Notes under the pieces: model-generated
Databases searched by the model: none
What the model was told of the DNA's origin: nothing
What the model saw: the letters and a program-made list of their open reading frames with translations, nothing else
Part shown: positions 10,482-17,317 of the stretch, in pieces
Position numbering within the stretch: the first letter of the stretch is position 1
Layout: each line of letters opens with the position of its first letter
Translations under genes and position numbers: made by a program
NCBI GenBank assembly: GCA_031260285.1
Contig: JAIRKD010000040.1
Coordinates: forward strand, 1-46,510
Source: Gemmatimonadota bacterium
GTDB lineage: Bacteria > Gemmatimonadota > Gemmatimonadetes > Longimicrobiales > Longimicrobiaceae
DNA: 46,510 nucleotides
Direction: 5' to 3'

Positions 10482-11031
10482 GGAGCCGGGTAGTATAACG
10501 GTTTAGAAGGTGTTGGGGAATGGGGGTGAGATGAGCTTGCGGGTTTACGGCGATCCGGTTCCTGATGAACGGTGCATCTGGTCGAATATGACAACACGGT
10601 GGCCGGCCTGTAAGCTTCCGCATCTGCGTAAAGCGTCCGGTCTCCGGATTGTAGTACCGGTTCCTCCGGTACATCAGCCCGTTCGGATCGGTGGATCCCA
10701 TCACCAGCGATCCATACCAGGTCTTGCTACGTAGATTACCGGGGTCGAGCGGGGTCTGGTAGGAACTGGTCTTCAGCGCGCTCCCCAGCACCGCGATCGA
10801 GCAGAGCTTCGTGGGTGGGCAGAGGCGTACCCCCGTATCGTCCGTGAAGTCGAAGTAGAGCCCGCGCACGTTGGCGTGCGGAATCACCCGCTTCCCGTTA
10901 CGGATCAGGCTCAGTGGCTGATCGATCCCGAGCCCGTGGGTATACCGGATCGTGATGCTGTCGCGCACCTCCAGCAGAAGCTGGTCTCCGTCCCAGACAA
11001 AGAGATCCGAGGATCTGTCACCACACTTCCG
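10471..11031 (-). pseudogene. Displaced RHS core fragment
   Basis: The 411 bases at 10621-11031 duplicate the RHS core at 12365-12775 with no length change and about 16 differences by eye (roughly 96% identical). The translated fragment runs from RKCGDRSSDLFVWDGD to RYYNPETGRFTQM. It then stops matching exactly where the intact protein continues into DPIGIAGG, and about 50 unrelated residues follow to a stop at 10471. It lacks the N-terminus, the YD repeats and the end of the core, so it is a broken cassette. The upstream side joins an IS3-type transposase start. This is the layout expected when an old RHS C-terminal cassette is displaced by a new one, although recombination with the IS is an alternative. 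Confidence 0.8.
10492..10497 (-). promoter_or_regulatory. Possible -10 element for rpsF
   Basis: TATACT on the minus strand, 94 bases before the rpsF start. No good -35 hexamer is seen at the standard spacing (TTCCCC at 17 bp), so this is weak. Confidence 0.25.
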
Positions 11032-11128
11032 CCTGCCGCAGGAACCCGATGATCTGCTCCGTCATAAACCGACTTGCTTTCATCTCGTCCGTCCTCTCTT
11101 TTGAGTGGCGGCAAAGGGGGGCAGGTCA
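11018..11128 (-). mobile_element. IS3-family element remnant (start of orfA)
   Basis: On the minus strand a 21-codon frame (11083-11018) reads MKASRFMTEQIIGFLRQAE, closely resembling the conserved N-terminus of IS3-family OrfA (MKxSRFTEEQIIGFLKEAE). It then runs into the RHS core copy and stops. The sequence TGACCTGCCCCC ending at 11128 resembles an IS407-group terminal inverted repeat, placed about 45 bases before the ATG. Only this end is left; no orfB is visible. Family assignment is from motif memory, not a database search. Confidence 0.65.
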
Positions 11129-11189: not shown

Positions 11190-11825
11190 TCAACGCATAA
11201 GATTGATTCCCCCGCCATCAATTATATCTATTTTCCGCAAAGGATGTGGTAAATCCAATGGATATACACATTCGTATCTATTTGCGTCTAAATATTCCAG
11301 CGCCCAAAACCGCATAGTCATGCCCTTATCTCCATTATTTCCTATCTCTATGGTGGTGGGCAGAGATAAAAGACTATCAAGTTTTTCATTAGGGTCCACG
11401 TATAGCGGTTTGATATCAATGCCTCCATCCAGTACAACTCCGCCGACATAATCACTCGTCAGCCAGTGCTCTATCCTGAGCGCTTCCAAACAATGATTCC
11501 AGGCTGATTCCGGCGTTGAACGGTCGCCCTTTTCGGGCTGTTTGCCATGGAACCATTCCCCCACGCTCTCAATCCGATGTAGTGCCCTATAGTCATAAAA
11601 ATATAATAGATCATCATAGAAGTGATCGTAAGTGTTTGGGAAAGCCATTACATAGTATCCTTTGTACAGCAGCGAAGGCCTGGTAATAGTGTCGATCTCG
11701 GCGCTCGTCAGCTTATACCCTACTACGTCAGACAGATCCCTTGTGATTATATCCCCGATATCGTCTTGGCATCCAGGGAATCCCAATGACATCACAAAGA
11801 AGAGAATCGGCATTCTTGTTTTCAT
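11190..11825 (-). CDS. Predicted lipoprotein, candidate immunity protein
   Basis: 211 residues, no recognised family. The N-terminus MKTRMPILFFVMSLGFPGC looks like a lipoprotein signal; FPGC is an imperfect lipobox with Cys19 as the lipidation candidate and Gln-Asp-Asp after it. The rest is soluble, rich in aromatic and acidic residues (FYDDLLYFYDYRAL). Its ATG overlaps the stop of the RHS gene (ATGA, 11822-11825), so it is translated right after the toxin tip. It is visibly more AT-rich than its neighbours, like the tip itself. Position, overlap and shared composition suggest a cognate immunity protein, held in the periplasm or on the outer membrane. This is inference; no homology supports it. 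Confidence 0.6.
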   Translation of the reverse strand: MKTRMPILFFVMSLGFPGCQDDIGDIITRDLSDVVGYKLTSAEIDTITRPSLLYKGYYVMAFPNTYDHFYDDLLYFYDYRALHRIESVGEWFHGKQPEKGDRSTPESAWNHCLEALRIEHWLTSDYVGGVVLDGGIDIKPLYVDPNEKLDSLLSLPTTIEIGNNGDKGMTMRFWALEYLDANRYECVYPLDLPHPLRKIDIIDGGGINLMR

Positions 11826-14800
11826 TTAAATTTGGGGTAGGCGTTTTTTATGTACAAAGACCATGATTCAGGCCCTCGCTCCATAGCTCTCAGTGCGGAG
11901 TCCCACCTCTTGCTGGTCCCTCTGCCTCCAGCCATCAGGTATGTAGCCATCCCATATATAAAAGCGTCAGATTCTTCAGCCAGGCTTTCACCAACAGCTC
12001 CATAGGTCGCATGCCATACCTCATGACTCAGGTTGGCGGCAATCTCGATCGTAGACCACCCATTTACATTGAGATTGATAGTCGGAACGTTCTTCTTGCC
12101 GGAATACGTTGTCGATCCACCAACAGTTGGTCCAAATCGATCAACGATATTCACGCTTGTCGTTTTGCTGTCTACAAGAGCCTGGATGACATCTCCCCTG
12201 CCTATCTGCTCCAATAACATATAGGCCTCTTTGATAGCGTCGTCGGGACAATTTTCGGTATCTGTGTCCTCCACTGGACAGAGCCCGAAGGGATCACTGA
12301 AGTTCACGGGATCTCCATTGGCATACCCGTAGACATTCAGCCCACCCGCGATGCCGATGGGGTCCATCTGCGTAAAGCGTCCGGTCTCCGGATTGTAGTA
12401 CCGGTTCCTCCGGTACATCAGTCCGTTCGGGTCGGTGGATCCCATCACCAGTGATCCATACCAGGTCTTGCTACGCAGATTACTCGGGTCGAGCGGGGTC
12501 CGGTAGGAACTGGTCTTCAGCGCGCTCCCCAGCACCGCGATCGAGCAGAGCTTCGTGGGTGGACAGAGGCGTACCCCCGTATCGTCCGTGAAGTCGAAGT
12601 AGAGCCCGCGCACGTTGGTGTGCGGAATCACCCGCTTCCCGTTCCGGATCAGGCTCAGTGGCTGATCGATCCCGAGCCCGTGGGTATACCGGACCGTGAT
12701 GCTGTCGCGCACCTCCAGCAGAAGCTGATCTCCGTCCCAGACAAAGAGTTCCGAGGATTTATCCCCACACTTCCGGCAGAGCAGATCGTCATCCCGCCTT
12801 GTGATCGTCCGGACTCTGCGGCCCAGTGCGTCGTACCGGTACTCCACAAACTCCCCATCAATGGTCTGCGGCATTCCGACCGGGACTCCCGGGCAGATCA
12901 CGCCCGTGGGGCAGAACGCTCCCGGCACCACCCGTTGCGTATACCGGAGCTTTCCATCTGCTCCGTACCAGCTCTGGCTCCGCGACTGCCCCACTCGTAC
13001 AGCTGGCTGAGAGTTGTTGAGCGGGCGTTGCCACGTCTCGGTTGCAAAAACCCGTTCATTTCCAGCCGCGTCATAGGTCGTGCTGGTTCCGGTCTGTGGA
13101 GGATAGGAACAGTTCCCGTCTGTGTTGCTGCAATACATGAAGTCTACATCGCTCGTCGTGTTGCCATCATGCCCTGTCTGCGTGACGATGAACGGGCGGT
13201 CGACCATCATTCCATCGTCATACTGTCTCTGGTTGACGAACCGGTACAGCAGGTTCCCCAGGGGATCGGTCACCATCTGTTCCACCTCGGTTCCGTTCTG
13301 CTCTGTGAGCAGGAGATACCCGAGCCCGGAGTAGTAATAATCTCCGAGGACCTTGCCTCGCTGATCATAGGTGAAGCTGGCATTCAGCATCCCCCCGGGG
13401 CCACCACTGCGGTTCTTCAGCCGACCATTCAGGTCATACTCCCGCGTCTCCGTCACCCCGTTCGGGTAGGCGATCGTCTTCAGCTCTCCGTGCGCCGTAT
13501 AGCTGAACAGGTAGTTCTTCCCCAGCACATCCTGGATTGAGGTCAGCTCCCCGGTGGTCGGGCTCCAGGTGTAACTCTGCTTCACCCCTCCGTTCTGGTG
13601 CAGCGCCGTCCGCCGCCCGTTCCGGTCGTACTCATACCGGAGCCCGTGCATGGCCCCAACTACCGCGAGTCCCGCCACGATGGTTGAGTCCTTGCGGAGT
13701 GCCCCGTTCGGATAGTACTCCCGGATCACCGTTGCATCCCGGTTCACCGCTTTTACCAGGTTCCCCAGGTTGTCATAGAGGAAGGTCTCCGTATCCGACG
13801 GGATGGTGAGCCCCCCGTTGGCTGCGTTCGGAAAGACCGGGAAGGATGTGAAATAGGTAGAGGACAGATCCAGCTGCTCCCGGGCGGTGGTCACCGCGGG
13901 AATGATGCGCTCCTTCAGCCGACCCAGCCGGTCGTAGTTCATCAGGATCGAATCCCCCGTCGCGGTCTTCACCTTCACCGGGTTCCCCGCCGGATCGTAG
14001 TGCGTCAGCGTGACGATCGGTGACGTGTTATGGATCGTCTGGCTCGAATGACTCGTCGGTCTGCCCAGCGCATCATAGACCCACGACTCGCTGGCAGCTG
14101 GCTCTGTGGAAACGGAAAGAAGATTCCCCACCGCATCATAGACGTTTGTCGTGAGGGTCCACTCCTCCGGGCTGCGCGCCTGTCCGCCCGTGAACCGGTT
14201 GGCGAAGGTGGGCGTGTACGGGATATCCATCGAGGGACCGTAGTGGACCGTTGTCTTCACCCGGTCCATCAGATCGTAGACAAAGTTCTGAACCCCTCTC
14301 CTCGTTCCGTCGATCGGGGTGTAGATCGAGTCCACCCGGCCGATCAGATCCCGCTTGATCGTCGTGACCGTTCCCAGCGGCGTAACCACCCTTCGCAGGT
14401 TGCACCGGTCGTCGTAGTCGTAGTGTGTACTGTCCGCGGCCGTTGCACTCTCCGTCACCCGGCTCGTCAGCCCGGCACATCCCGAAGGGATATACGCAAA
14501 ACTGACCCGCGAGGCCGTACCACGACCATCCTGCACCCAACTTGTGTTCCCGTTGACCAGGTACGCCATCTGAACAAAGTCCCCCTCCGGCTGGGTGACC
14601 TTGGTGGGAAGAAAGGGATGAAGCACATCGCTGTACTCGTAGCTCGTTACCGCATCGCGGCCATCTCCGTAGGGATTGATCTGGGTCGTCCGGATCGGGG
14701 CGCCTTTTCCGTTGAATACAGCCCGGGTGGTGTACCCGTTGGACGCCCGGACTTCCGTCACCAGCGCCGGGAAGCTCGCATCCTCCCGGAAGAGCCGCGT

Positions 14801-17317
14801 CTCGTTGCCCAGTACATCCCGGATCACGGTCGGCGCACCCCACCGGTCCGTCCAGATCCGGGTCGTGTCCCGGAGCGTCGGAGAAACTGGAACCGGCCCC
14901 AGGATCATGGTCATCGCGCTCGTCAGTGCGATGGGGGTCCCCTTCGGAGCTGCCGCCGTGCCGACCTTGAGCCCGAGAACTTCCAAGGGGCTGAAGTCAC
15001 TTCGGATATTCAACCGGTTGGTCCCCGTATCCGCCACCAGCGTTGTAAACCGGCTCCCGACAGGGGTATAGCTGTAGCTGTTGCGCGTCCCTCGTTTGTC
15101 CGTCCGGCTGCTCACCAGACGGCTGGTGGTGTTCGGATAGCTGAACCGGGTACTCAACAGCGTATCCGACGGGCTGTCCGGGTCCTGGATGTACCGGATC
15201 CGGCCTCCTCCACCCGTCAGCGTCGTGAGCGCCACCTTCGTGGTACGGGAAACCGGATTCACCGGCGGCGGCGCGGTGATTGTGTAGTTCCCGACCACAC
15301 CTCCCGCCGGCCAGCTGATAACATACTCCTGACGGGTGATGCCGGAGGGGGCCGGGAGCAGGATCTTCGAAAGCCGTCCGTAGCTGTCGTACTCGAAACT
15401 GGTTCTATGACCCAACCGGCTGACGGTGGAGTCCTGCAGACCCGTCGCGCTGTAGTACACCTTCGTCTTGTCCGGCAGGTCATGGACGTACGAAACCTGC
15501 GTACCCACCGTGATCTTCCGGATCGAATCCACTCCCGCCATGTCCGGATGGGTCGCCTTCCATGTTGTGGGATTGGCGGGGGTACCAGGTTCAAACAGAC
15601 GGGTACTGCCGTCCCCGCCCACCCAGAGGAAGCTGTTCCCCTCCTGCACCAGACGCTCGATCCCCGCCATCCACCACCCTGATCCGAACGGCGAGCTCGC
15701 GCGGTTCACAATCACCAGTTTCCCGGTCTTTGTAACTGTGCTCGACCCCTGCTTCACCTCCAGCGTGTAGTCGTAGCTCCCCGTTGGATCCGACGCCGCG
15801 TCAAACCCAAGTGCGATCCGCCTTGCCTGCCCACCCGTCCATCCAGACGTCGTCCAGGCTCCCGTTGCACGGGTGGTCCAGGTCGTTGCGGTGGACGCTT
15901 TCACCCGCAGCGTCGCCATCACCGAATCCGTCTGCGATACTCCGGTCGGAAGCCATACGTTGGCCGCCACTACAGGCACCGGGGTCGCATGCTGGCTGTT
16001 GTACAGAAGCGTCGGAGATCGGTCCGCACTCATCGCCTGCGTTACCGGAAGACCATGTACCAGCCGCAGATCTCCGCATTCGTAGCCCGCTCCGGCCCCC
16101 GCCGATACGGCAACACAGTAGGACCGCTCGACCGCGGTACCCGGATTCACCGTCTCCACCTCCACACCCAGCGTGTTCTGCACGGAAAGCGTCATCGCAC
16201 CCGTAACCGGCAGAGCCGTAGTTGAAGCAGACGCTCTGGCCTTGAGCTGAACGACTCCGGTGCTGGAGGGCATCCCACTCGCATACTTGATCCAGGCCGT
16301 TGCACTTCCCAATGCGGGAACCGTTACCACCGAGGGCATGACCAGGCAGTTCGATGTGGATGCACTCTCGCATGCCGCACTCAGATCATAACTGCCCGCG
16401 GTTGATTTATAGTTCTTGATCGTGAACTGAACACTGTCCGTTGTACCGGGTGTCGTGGTACGGGTTGGCACCGACGGAGTGATCAAAACCTCTTCCCAGA
16501 CCGCCGTAATCCCTCCGGCTTTTACGACCCCCGCTCCCTGGTGGGTAGCGCGCACCCCGATTGTGGGGGTTGAAGAGCTGTACGGGCCCGTCGTATAGGT
16601 GAGCGTGACAGGGAAGCTCTTGTCCGGGTTGGGTGGCGCCTCGCTGACCATTACCTGACTCGGCGAGACACTGCAGTTGAGAATGCCCGGGCCACAGTCC
16701 GGCACAACAGCAACCGTGCCTCCGATTCCCGAATAATGGATGTTGAAGCTTTGCGTGCGGGTTGCATTCGGTGGAACAGAGATAACAGAGCCCAGAGGCG
16801 TAATTCCGAGATACGCCAGAGGGCCGAGGACCCCTACATCCACGTCAAAATAGGCCCCCATCCCTCCTCCGGAAGTCGTCAGTTTATAGGTGGCGGTTCC
16901 ACCCGAAGAACCAACCATAAAGCCAAGAAAGAAGGCTTCCGGGAACTCGACATTCGGTTCGACCCACATCTCAATCGGCTCATCCGCACAATCCAGCGTT
17001 CCACCACATGAGAGCAGTTCGACCGTGATGGGCAGAGTTTGCTGAGAGTAATTCAGGACGTAGATCACCAGATCCGCAAATTGATACTGGTATCCGTACG
17101 TAGAGTAACCACCCATGGAGCCGTTTGGGCTCCTCAGCTCGATCTGCGCTTCCGGTCGCCCCGTCGCGAGCAGAGACACGAGAACCGCCAGGCCGATCCG
17201 GGCCGCCACACCAGATCGAAACAACCCGAACCATGGAGCTGACGCAGAAGCCCGCTTCATTCGCGAGGGAGCGGAAGAGACCGCAGGCAGAAATACAGAC
17301 AGGACAGAATCCATCAT
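11822..17317 (-). CDS. Secreted RHS/YD-repeat polymorphic toxin
   Basis: 1831 residues. N-terminus has a signal peptide (hydrophobic IGLAVLVSLLATGRPEA, then Gln). Residues about 60-600 look like several beta-sandwich domains, then FGSGWWMAGIERLV and a WVGGDGSTRLFE segment typical of RHS entry regions. YD repeats cover roughly 640-1560 (YDALGRPTSH, YDRLGRLKER, YEYDRNGRRTAL, YRYDALGRRVRT). The conserved core is PNGLMYRRNRYYNPETGRF ... NVYGYANGDPVNFSDPFGL, ending near residue 1679. A 152-residue variable tip follows. The RHS shell in characterised proteins encloses the toxin and cleaves it after the core. The ATG at 17260 (MKRASASAPW) is a plausible alternative start with a better signal-peptide shape. 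It overlaps the candidate immunity gene. No secretion-system genes or VgrG are nearby. Confidence 0.9.
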   Translation of the reverse strand: MMDSVLSVFLPAVSSAPSRMKRASASAPWFGLFRSGVAARIGLAVLVSLLATGRPEAQIELRSPNGSMGGYSTYGYQYQFADLVIYVLNYSQQTLPITVELLSCGGTLDCADEPIEMWVEPNVEFPEAFFLGFMVGSSGGTATYKLTTSGGGMGAYFDVDVGVLGPLAYLGITPLGSVISVPPNATRTQSFNIHYSGIGGTVAVVPDCGPGILNCSVSPSQVMVSEAPPNPDKSFPVTLTYTTGPYSSSTPTIGVRATHQGAGVVKAGGITAVWEEVLITPSVPTRTTTPGTTDSVQFTIKNYKSTAGSYDLSAACESASTSNCLVMPSVVTVPALGSATAWIKYASGMPSSTGVVQLKARASASTTALPVTGAMTLSVQNTLGVEVETVNPGTAVERSYCVAVSAGAGAGYECGDLRLVHGLPVTQAMSADRSPTLLYNSQHATPVPVVAANVWLPTGVSQTDSVMATLRVKASTATTWTTRATGAWTTSGWTGGQARRIALGFDAASDPTGSYDYTLEVKQGSSTVTKTGKLVIVNRASSPFGSGWWMAGIERLVQEGNSFLWVGGDGSTRLFEPGTPANPTTWKATHPDMAGVDSIRKITVGTQVSYVHDLPDKTKVYYSATGLQDSTVSRLGHRTSFEYDSYGRLSKILLPAPSGITRQEYVISWPAGGVVGNYTITAPPPVNPVSRTTKVALTTLTGGGGRIRYIQDPDSPSDTLLSTRFSYPNTTSRLVSSRTDKRGTRNSYSYTPVGSRFTTLVADTGTNRLNIRSDFSPLEVLGLKVGTAAAPKGTPIALTSAMTMILGPVPVSPTLRDTTRIWTDRWGAPTVIRDVLGNETRLFREDASFPALVTEVRASNGYTTRAVFNGKGAPIRTTQINPYGDGRDAVTSYEYSDVLHPFLPTKVTQPEGDFVQMAYLVNGNTSWVQDGRGTASRVSFAYIPSGCAGLTSRVTESATAADSTHYDYDDRCNLRRVVTPLGTVTTIKRDLIGRVDSIYTPIDGTRRGVQNFVYDLMDRVKTTVHYGPSMDIPYTPTFANRFTGGQARSPEEWTLTTNVYDAVGNLLSVSTEPAASESWVYDALGRPTSHSSQTIHNTSPIVTLTHYDPAGNPVKVKTATGDSILMNYDRLGRLKERIIPAVTTAREQLDLSSTYFTSFPVFPNAANGGLTIPSDTETFLYDNLGNLVKAVNRDATVIREYYPNGALRKDSTIVAGLAVVGAMHGLRYEYDRNGRRTALHQNGGVKQSYTWSPTTGELTSIQDVLGKNYLFSYTAHGELKTIAYPNGVTETREYDLNGRLKNRSGGPGGMLNASFTYDQRGKVLGDYYYSGLGYLLLTEQNGTEVEQMVTDPLGNLLYRFVNQRQYDDGMMVDRPFIVTQTGHDGNTTSDVDFMYCSNTDGNCSYPPQTGTSTTYDAAGNERVFATETWQRPLNNSQPAVRVGQSRSQSWYGADGKLRYTQRVVPGAFCPTGVICPGVPVGMPQTIDGEFVEYRYDALGRRVRTITRRDDDLLCRKCGDKSSELFVWDGDQLLLEVRDSITVRYTHGLGIDQPLSLIRNGKRVIPHTNVRGLYFDFTDDTGVRLCPPTKLCSIAVLGSALKTSSYRTPLDPSNLRSKTWYGSLVMGSTDPNGLMYRRNRYYNPETGRFTQMDPIGIAGGLNVYGYANGDPVNFSDPFGLCPVEDTDTENCPDDAIKEAYMLLEQIGRGDVIQALVDSKTTSVNIVDRFGPTVGGSTTYSGKKNVPTINLNVNGWSTIEIAANLSHEVWHATYGAVGESLAEESDAFIYGMATYLMAGGRGTSKRWDSALRAMERGPESWSLYIKNAYPKFK
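11825..12280 (-). other. RHS toxin tip: predicted zinc metallopeptidase
   Basis: Residues about 1680-1831 of the RHS protein, after the DPFGL core end. The tip contains HEVWH (1765-1769; bases 12011-12025), an HExxH zinc-protease motif inside a predicted helix (IAANLSHEVWHATYG). GESLAEESDAF follows, giving Glu candidates 8, 12 and 13 residues after the second His for a third zinc ligand (gluzincin-like). Two Cys flank its N-terminus. Base composition drops visibly compared with the RHS shell. Metallopeptidase tips are a known class among polymorphic toxins; the substrate is unknown. Confidence 0.7.
12365..12775. repeat. RHS core direct repeat, copy B (intact gene)
   Basis: 411-bp segment inside the intact RHS gene that is duplicated at 10621-11031 in the same orientation, 1.33 kb away, without indels. 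It covers the core just before the toxin tip and could serve as homology for cassette exchange or for deletion of the tip plus immunity gene. Confidence 0.9.

Follow-up and report, generated by a model that had tools for sequence, protein, structure and literature searches.

A candidate periplasm-acting metallopeptidase tip and its lipoprotein-type partner in an RHS gene of a Gemmatimonadota bacterium

The C-terminal metallopeptidase of VgrG2b exerts its toxicity in the periplasm, and the cognate immunity protein depends on its own signal peptide (PMC6899460). VgrG2b/PA0261 of P. aeruginosa and SARI_02727/SARI_02726 of Salmonella arizonae each combine an HExxH toxin with a small envelope-targeted immunity protein, which has a signal peptide in Pseudomonas and is a predicted lipoprotein in Enterobacteriaceae (PMC6899460, PMC12992299). 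Some RHS proteins also end in HExxH domains, such as Tox-MPTase1-5 and Tox-HopH1 (Peptidase_M91) (PMC3482391). A periplasmic metallopeptidase toxin with envelope immunity is a known kind of weapon. In the RHS main and orphan loci of Salmonella and other enterobacteria, a DPxGL motif is followed by the tip, the immunity gene and, downstream, a displaced core fragment (PMC3967940).

We analyzed a stretch of 46,510 nucleotides (the window), which is contig 6 (C6) of a 2.76-Mb Gemmatimonadota genome in 110 contigs (G000). Its exchangeable cassette at 11190-12280 probably encodes a small, gluzincin-like zinc metallopeptidase that would act in the periplasm, together with the cognate lipoprotein immunity protein. 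The original prediction had called this a candidate new toxin-immunity pair. The cassette itself is borne out by its boundary, GC shift, gene overlap and duplicated core; the concept is less new than claimed, because there are known metallopeptidase effectors whose immunity proteins carry a signal peptide or are lipoproteins (PMC6899460, PMC12992299, PMC3482391). The features of the locus are as follows.

11822-17317, minus strand: RHS polymorphic toxin gene, 1831 amino acids
12281..12430, minus strand: end of the RHS-associated core, terminating in DPFGL (TIGR03696 match and translation)
11825..12280, minus strand: candidate zinc metallopeptidase toxin tip, 152 amino acids, RHS residues 1680-1831 (stop codon at 11822-11824)
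12011..12025, minus strand: HEVWH motif, tip residues 86-90 (RHS 1765-1769)
11972..11974, minus strand: tip Glu103 (RHS 1782), candidate for the third zinc ligand, in E-x-x-A-x-x-Y (motif reading across relatives)
11190-11825, minus strand: candidate immunity lipoprotein gene, 211 amino acids, ATG start
11769..11825, minus strand: lipoprotein-type signal MKTRMPILFFVMSLGFPGC, lipobox FPGC (direct reading and heuristic rule)
12365..12775, minus strand: resident copy of a 411-bp repeat, the 3' end of the live core
11021..11083, minus strand: remnant similar to the beginning of an IS3-family OrfA (MKASRFMTEQIIGFLRQAEVW), between the partner gene and the displaced core
10621-11031, minus strand: displaced copy of the core 3' end, cut at RFTQM and tipless

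The 1831-amino acid protein has the RHS repeats (PF05593, E 2e-24), core (TIGR03696, E 1.7e-17, last residue 1679) and DPxGL-type boundary of RHS/YD polymorphic toxins. The variable tip of such toxins is evident from the GC shift, the 411-bp core duplication and the mostly dissimilar tips in the genome. The N terminus is hydrophobic and Sec-like as read by eye, and no PAAR or VgrG domain was found by Pfam. The tip and the lipoprotein gene have GC contents of 48.6% and 44.5%, as compared with 60.8% for the RHS core and 62.9% for the window, and the lipoprotein gene overlaps the RHS gene by 4 bp (11822-11825, ATGA). The original prediction of a tip at about residues 1680-1831 with HEVWH and downstream glutamates (Glu98, Glu102 and Glu103), followed by an overlapping gene of similarly low GC for a probable lipoprotein, thus holds in its coordinates and residues. 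In the signal of this protein, the charged start (MKTRM), hydrophobic stretch (PILFFVMSLG) and Cys19 fit a lipoprotein; phenylalanine and proline at -3 and -2 are unusual, making the lipobox noncanonical.

Like VgrG2b/PA0261 and the SARI pair, the window has an HExxH tip beside a small partner that is predicted to be envelope-targeted. Unlike that of VgrG2b, this tip belongs to an RHS protein whose N terminus is Sec-like, and it has no sequence match to solved structures or Pfam families. The order of DPxGL, tip, immunity-type gene and displaced core is the same as in enterobacterial RHS loci, except that here the displaced core no longer carries a tip, an IS3 remnant precedes it, and the phylum is different.

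The HExxH motif of gluzincins arose in only 0.1% of shuffled copies of the window tip. Across the RHS tips of the window's family, HExxH is present in 13 of 70, as compared with 0.4 expected from shuffling. In the window tip, E-S-D-A-F-I-Y begins 13 residues past the second histidine of this motif, as does E-R-D-A-D-S-Y in the L208 tip described below; the L133 tip has D-A-L-A-D-A-Y at 12 residues, and the C23 tip E-L-R-A-W-D-E at 16. This E-x-x-A-x-x-Y-like motif, read by eye, makes Glu103 the best third-ligand candidate. We propose Glu103 as the predicted third zinc ligand, with Glu102 as the alternative. MAFFT aligns Glu103 with a later glutamate of C23, and in a profile alignment with chromosomal HExxH proteins, their glutamate faces Tyr109, not Glu103. 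AlphaFold2 models of the tip (two-row alignment, pLDDT 42.9) and the partner (single sequence, pLDDT 30.9) were both of low confidence, and a PDB fold search with this low-confidence tip model returned matches only at E=10.

As the original prediction had supposed, neither protein could be assigned to a family. HMM and sequence searches of the tip and the lipoprotein yielded nothing significant in Pfam, NCBIfam, PHROGs or PADLOC, and neither the tip, the partner nor two profiles of the tip found a significant sequence match in the PDB; the VgrG2b chain was absent among PDB matches at E<=10 for the tip and both profiles. The partner has no Pfam or NCBIfam match and could not be assigned to the PA0261 family. 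Pfam holds all five Tox-MPTase families, and the tip matched none of them in a Pfam-A scan at a limit of E 10. Peptidase_M91 (PF14891) did not match the tip at E<=1, and unlike Tox-HopH1, the tip has no EN or DN after HEVWH. An ENxVR-type motif like that of HopH1 is present instead in other tips (G032:C5, G032:C13 and L209). In tblastn searches of plasmids, the partner had no match and the tip only weak matches under murQ; viral contigs searched with the alignment of the C6 and C23 tips held no relative, and a single-tip scan of genome contigs gave 69 pattern matches with no relative of the tip among them. Judged from these searches, tip and partner appear to lie outside any described sequence family and would constitute new sequence families.

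DUF6782 (PF20573) was rejected as the family of the tip. It does not match the window tip, and its match to the C23 tip around HExxH (23.5 bits, E 3.9e-5) does not reach the cut-off of 27 bits. Of 395 genomes in the phylum, 289 have matches to this model, which also picks up ordinary chromosomal HExxH proteins; the C23 score therefore supports a metallopeptidase, not membership. The chromosomal protein that DUF6782 finds (L097-L126; EQVxGFYDPDS...HELVHAxQ...EGHAT) is conserved in most genomes of the phylum.

The same genome encodes a relative of the tip on contig C23. This RHS tip is 167 amino acids in length, has HEYAH, and is 29% identical to the window tip (z=10, in standard deviations above shuffles); its partner is a lipoprotein (ISGC). 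A core-based scan and profile search identified three further tips in other Gemmatimonadota: L133 (RBC101, HEMAH), L208 (G155, HEARH, E 1.2e-9) and L209 (G004, HETKH, E 1.8e-8). HExxH is kept in all four candidate relatives. L133, L208 and L209 are clearly related to one another (z above 20), and their link to the C6 and C23 tips is weak (z 2-4). For these two groups, hhalign gave a probability of 82% with the shared CP..CP linker and 48% without it, on another alignment; between C6/C23 and the chromosomal HExxH proteins, the hhalign probability was 65%. Downstream of the L209 tip lies a lipoprotein-type gene (AASC), and downstream of the L133 tip a short ORF whose product has a hydrophobic stretch at its N terminus; no clear partner gene follows the L208 tip. 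A low-scoring A3 match in G301 lies in an unrelated frame and was set aside; further low-scoring A3 matches are in G316, G079 and G055. L132 and L127 were found through core similarity and have unrelated tips.

Two of these loci have an unusual layout. L209 (1381-3197) has two HExxH tips in tandem, both on partial cores; the first (HETKH) with its lipoprotein partner is followed by a second core piece and a tip with HEVGH...AENAVRGLE that resembles Peptidase_M91/HopH1. L133 (2240-3240), from the Gemmatimonadetes genome RBC101, is an orphan HExxH tip with a core fragment of ~35 residues, directly behind a HicB/HicA-like pair named by eye.

The broadest reading of these relationships is one we put forward tentatively, and it is rather more doubtful than the assignment of the cassette itself. 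The C6 and C23 tips, with the distant L133, L208 and L209, might form a new family of peptidase toxins, so far confined to RHS proteins of Gemmatimonadota, with a new family of immunity lipoproteins and a novel envelope substrate; a lipoprotein partner would then predict periplasmic action of RHS tips without a recognizable domain.

The only homologue of the partner is a C-terminal piece on another contig of the same genome (C93:11-190; 36% identity over 59 amino acids, E 2.3e-6, z 15). It is an orphan (L008, 1-208), cut by the left edge of the contig. The partners in C23 and L209 have no detectable similarity to that in the window. Low sequence identity is common among the immunity proteins of a single toxin family (PMC6899460).

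The displaced core copy lies downstream of the lipoprotein gene and differs from the resident copy by 16 mismatches in 411 bp (96% identity). The IS3 remnant is mostly 60-80% identical to plasmid sequences over ~20 residues (tblastn, E about 0.1), some of which are annotated as IS3-family transposases. The core duplication and the IS3 remnant are the scar of a tip exchange, and the cassette looks like a product of recombination. Insertion of a fresh core-tip-immunity piece next to an older core end would give such a duplicated core; a comparable displaced core arrangement has been described in RHS orphan loci (PMC3967940). The genome has 11 tip-bearing RHS core ends, mostly unlike each other. 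Neither this number, the 411-bp duplicate nor the C23 relative had been part of the original prediction. The tips are located on contigs C6, C23, C26, C27, C33, C45, C86 and C93; C33 and C93 carry arrays of displaced tips, among them nuclease-like and membrane-partnered ones.

The compartment of action was addressed through a survey of TIGR03696 core ends in 21 genomes of the window's family. The partner was defined as the longest ORF starting -40 to +150 bases from the tip stop, and was called a lipoprotein by a home-made rule, a lipobox behind a hydrophobic stretch. Lipoprotein partners accompany 10 of 13 HExxH tips and 11 of 53 other tips (one-sided Fisher p=2.6e-4), in a set of tips that are not fully independent owing to kinship and in which five of the 13 with HExxH come from G032. 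The association persists without the window's genome (lipoprotein/not, 6/3 for HExxH and 10/36 for others; p=0.013) and within it (4/0 and 1/6; p=0.015). It supports the earlier inference from the lipoprotein partner to a toxin acting in the envelope. Of the three exceptions among the 13, one has a partner with a Sec-type signal and another a partner whose Sec-type signal is probable; the third is a truncated tip, and its partner is a two-TM protein. A further 79 named loci provided 60 tips, none with HExxH, and therefore could not enlarge the test.

Among tips without HExxH, lipoprotein partners occur with Peptidase_M23 (E 7.6e-30) and with a CHAP-like tip (E 7e-4, below the cut-off), and two more lipoprotein-partnered tips carry HEL[LI]GH. 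Nuclease-type tips have soluble partners: no signal is present on the partner of a Tox-REase-9 tip (E 1.4e-15) or on that of a GIY-YIG-like tip. The M23 tip (L055, core end at G400:C100:5833-6051) is a clear peptidoglycan-cutting tip followed by the gene for its lipoprotein immunity protein, and an HEARH tip adjoins it in the same array. RHS tips with HELIGH/HELLGH and an EN motif are found at L033 and L065 (G361:C334 and G379:C15), where the partners were called lipoproteins, that of G379 being multi-TM; these tips are possibly a variant HExxxH metallopeptidase.

We infer zinc binding, proteolysis, toxicity, neutralization, release and target for the cassette, which might work as follows. The RHS shell would export and deliver the tip. 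Export via Sec is likely, given the Sec-like N terminus and the lack of a PAAR or VgrG domain by Pfam. Release would occur at the DPFGL boundary, through the aspartyl protease of the core, to which RHS release has been attributed (PMC8636562). In the target periplasm, His86, His90 and probably Glu103 would hold zinc, with Glu87 as the catalytic base, and the substrate cut by the tip would be either a protein of the envelope or a peptide of the peptidoglycan. In the producer, the lipoprotein would sit on the periplasmic face of the membrane, where it would bind and block tips delivered by sister cells. The genome also has a ClpV1 match above the curated cut-off (C80:3823-6417, 1269.9 bits), in a bin with contamination estimated at 4.8%. 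A T6SS may exist on account of this match; nothing ties it to the RHS gene.

The alternative that survives best keeps the periplasmic site and lipoprotein immunity, and takes the tip for a zinc hydrolase of peptidoglycan peptides rather than of proteins. The M23 and CHAP-like tips of related genomes are of the cell-wall-cutting type and likewise have lipoprotein partners, but they have no evident similarity to the window tip. HExxH families more often cut proteins, and a peptidoglycan substrate is accordingly the less likely one, though it deserves to be kept in mind.

Two further alternatives are improbable. One is that the tip is degenerate, with a nonworking HExxH in a decaying cassette. 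The displaced core and the IS3 remnant do show turnover at the locus, and the tips on G000:C26 and G032:C11 look truncated; in the window, however, both frames are intact with their 4-bp overlap, and HEVWH and the acidic patch are complete. The other, equally improbable, is that the partner is an unrelated lipoprotein gene carried in with the cassette, and not the immunity gene. In its favor, the sole homologue on C93 has no visible tip alongside, with the contig ending there, and the partners of related tips lack detectable similarity. The low identity among immunity proteins of one family noted above weakens the latter point, and the overlap, the common low GC, the position between tip and duplicated core, and the partner rule seen across the family all argue for a cognate pair.

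Least probable of all is a processing role, in which the HExxH domain would be a peptidase that frees or trims the RHS protein and the lipoprotein an accessory or delivery factor: PVC-type metallopeptidase domains do process polymorphic toxins (PMC3482391), but the tip comes last in the protein, after DPFGL, and no further domain follows that it could release, sister RHS tips at this position are nuclease, GIY-YIG-like, M23 and CHAP-like, each with its own partner, and the core aspartyl protease is already credited with RHS release (PMC8636562).

If the periplasmic metallopeptidase reading is true, the small set of peptidase weapons that act in the periplasm would gain a metallopeptidase tip and an immunity lipoprotein, both of them unclassified. 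The survey suggests a rule usable for any genome, by which the signal of the partner gene indicates the compartment in which an uncharacterized RHS tip acts. With 11 tips in one genome, the Gemmatimonadota, little studied for competition, are indicated as carriers of large tip repertoires.
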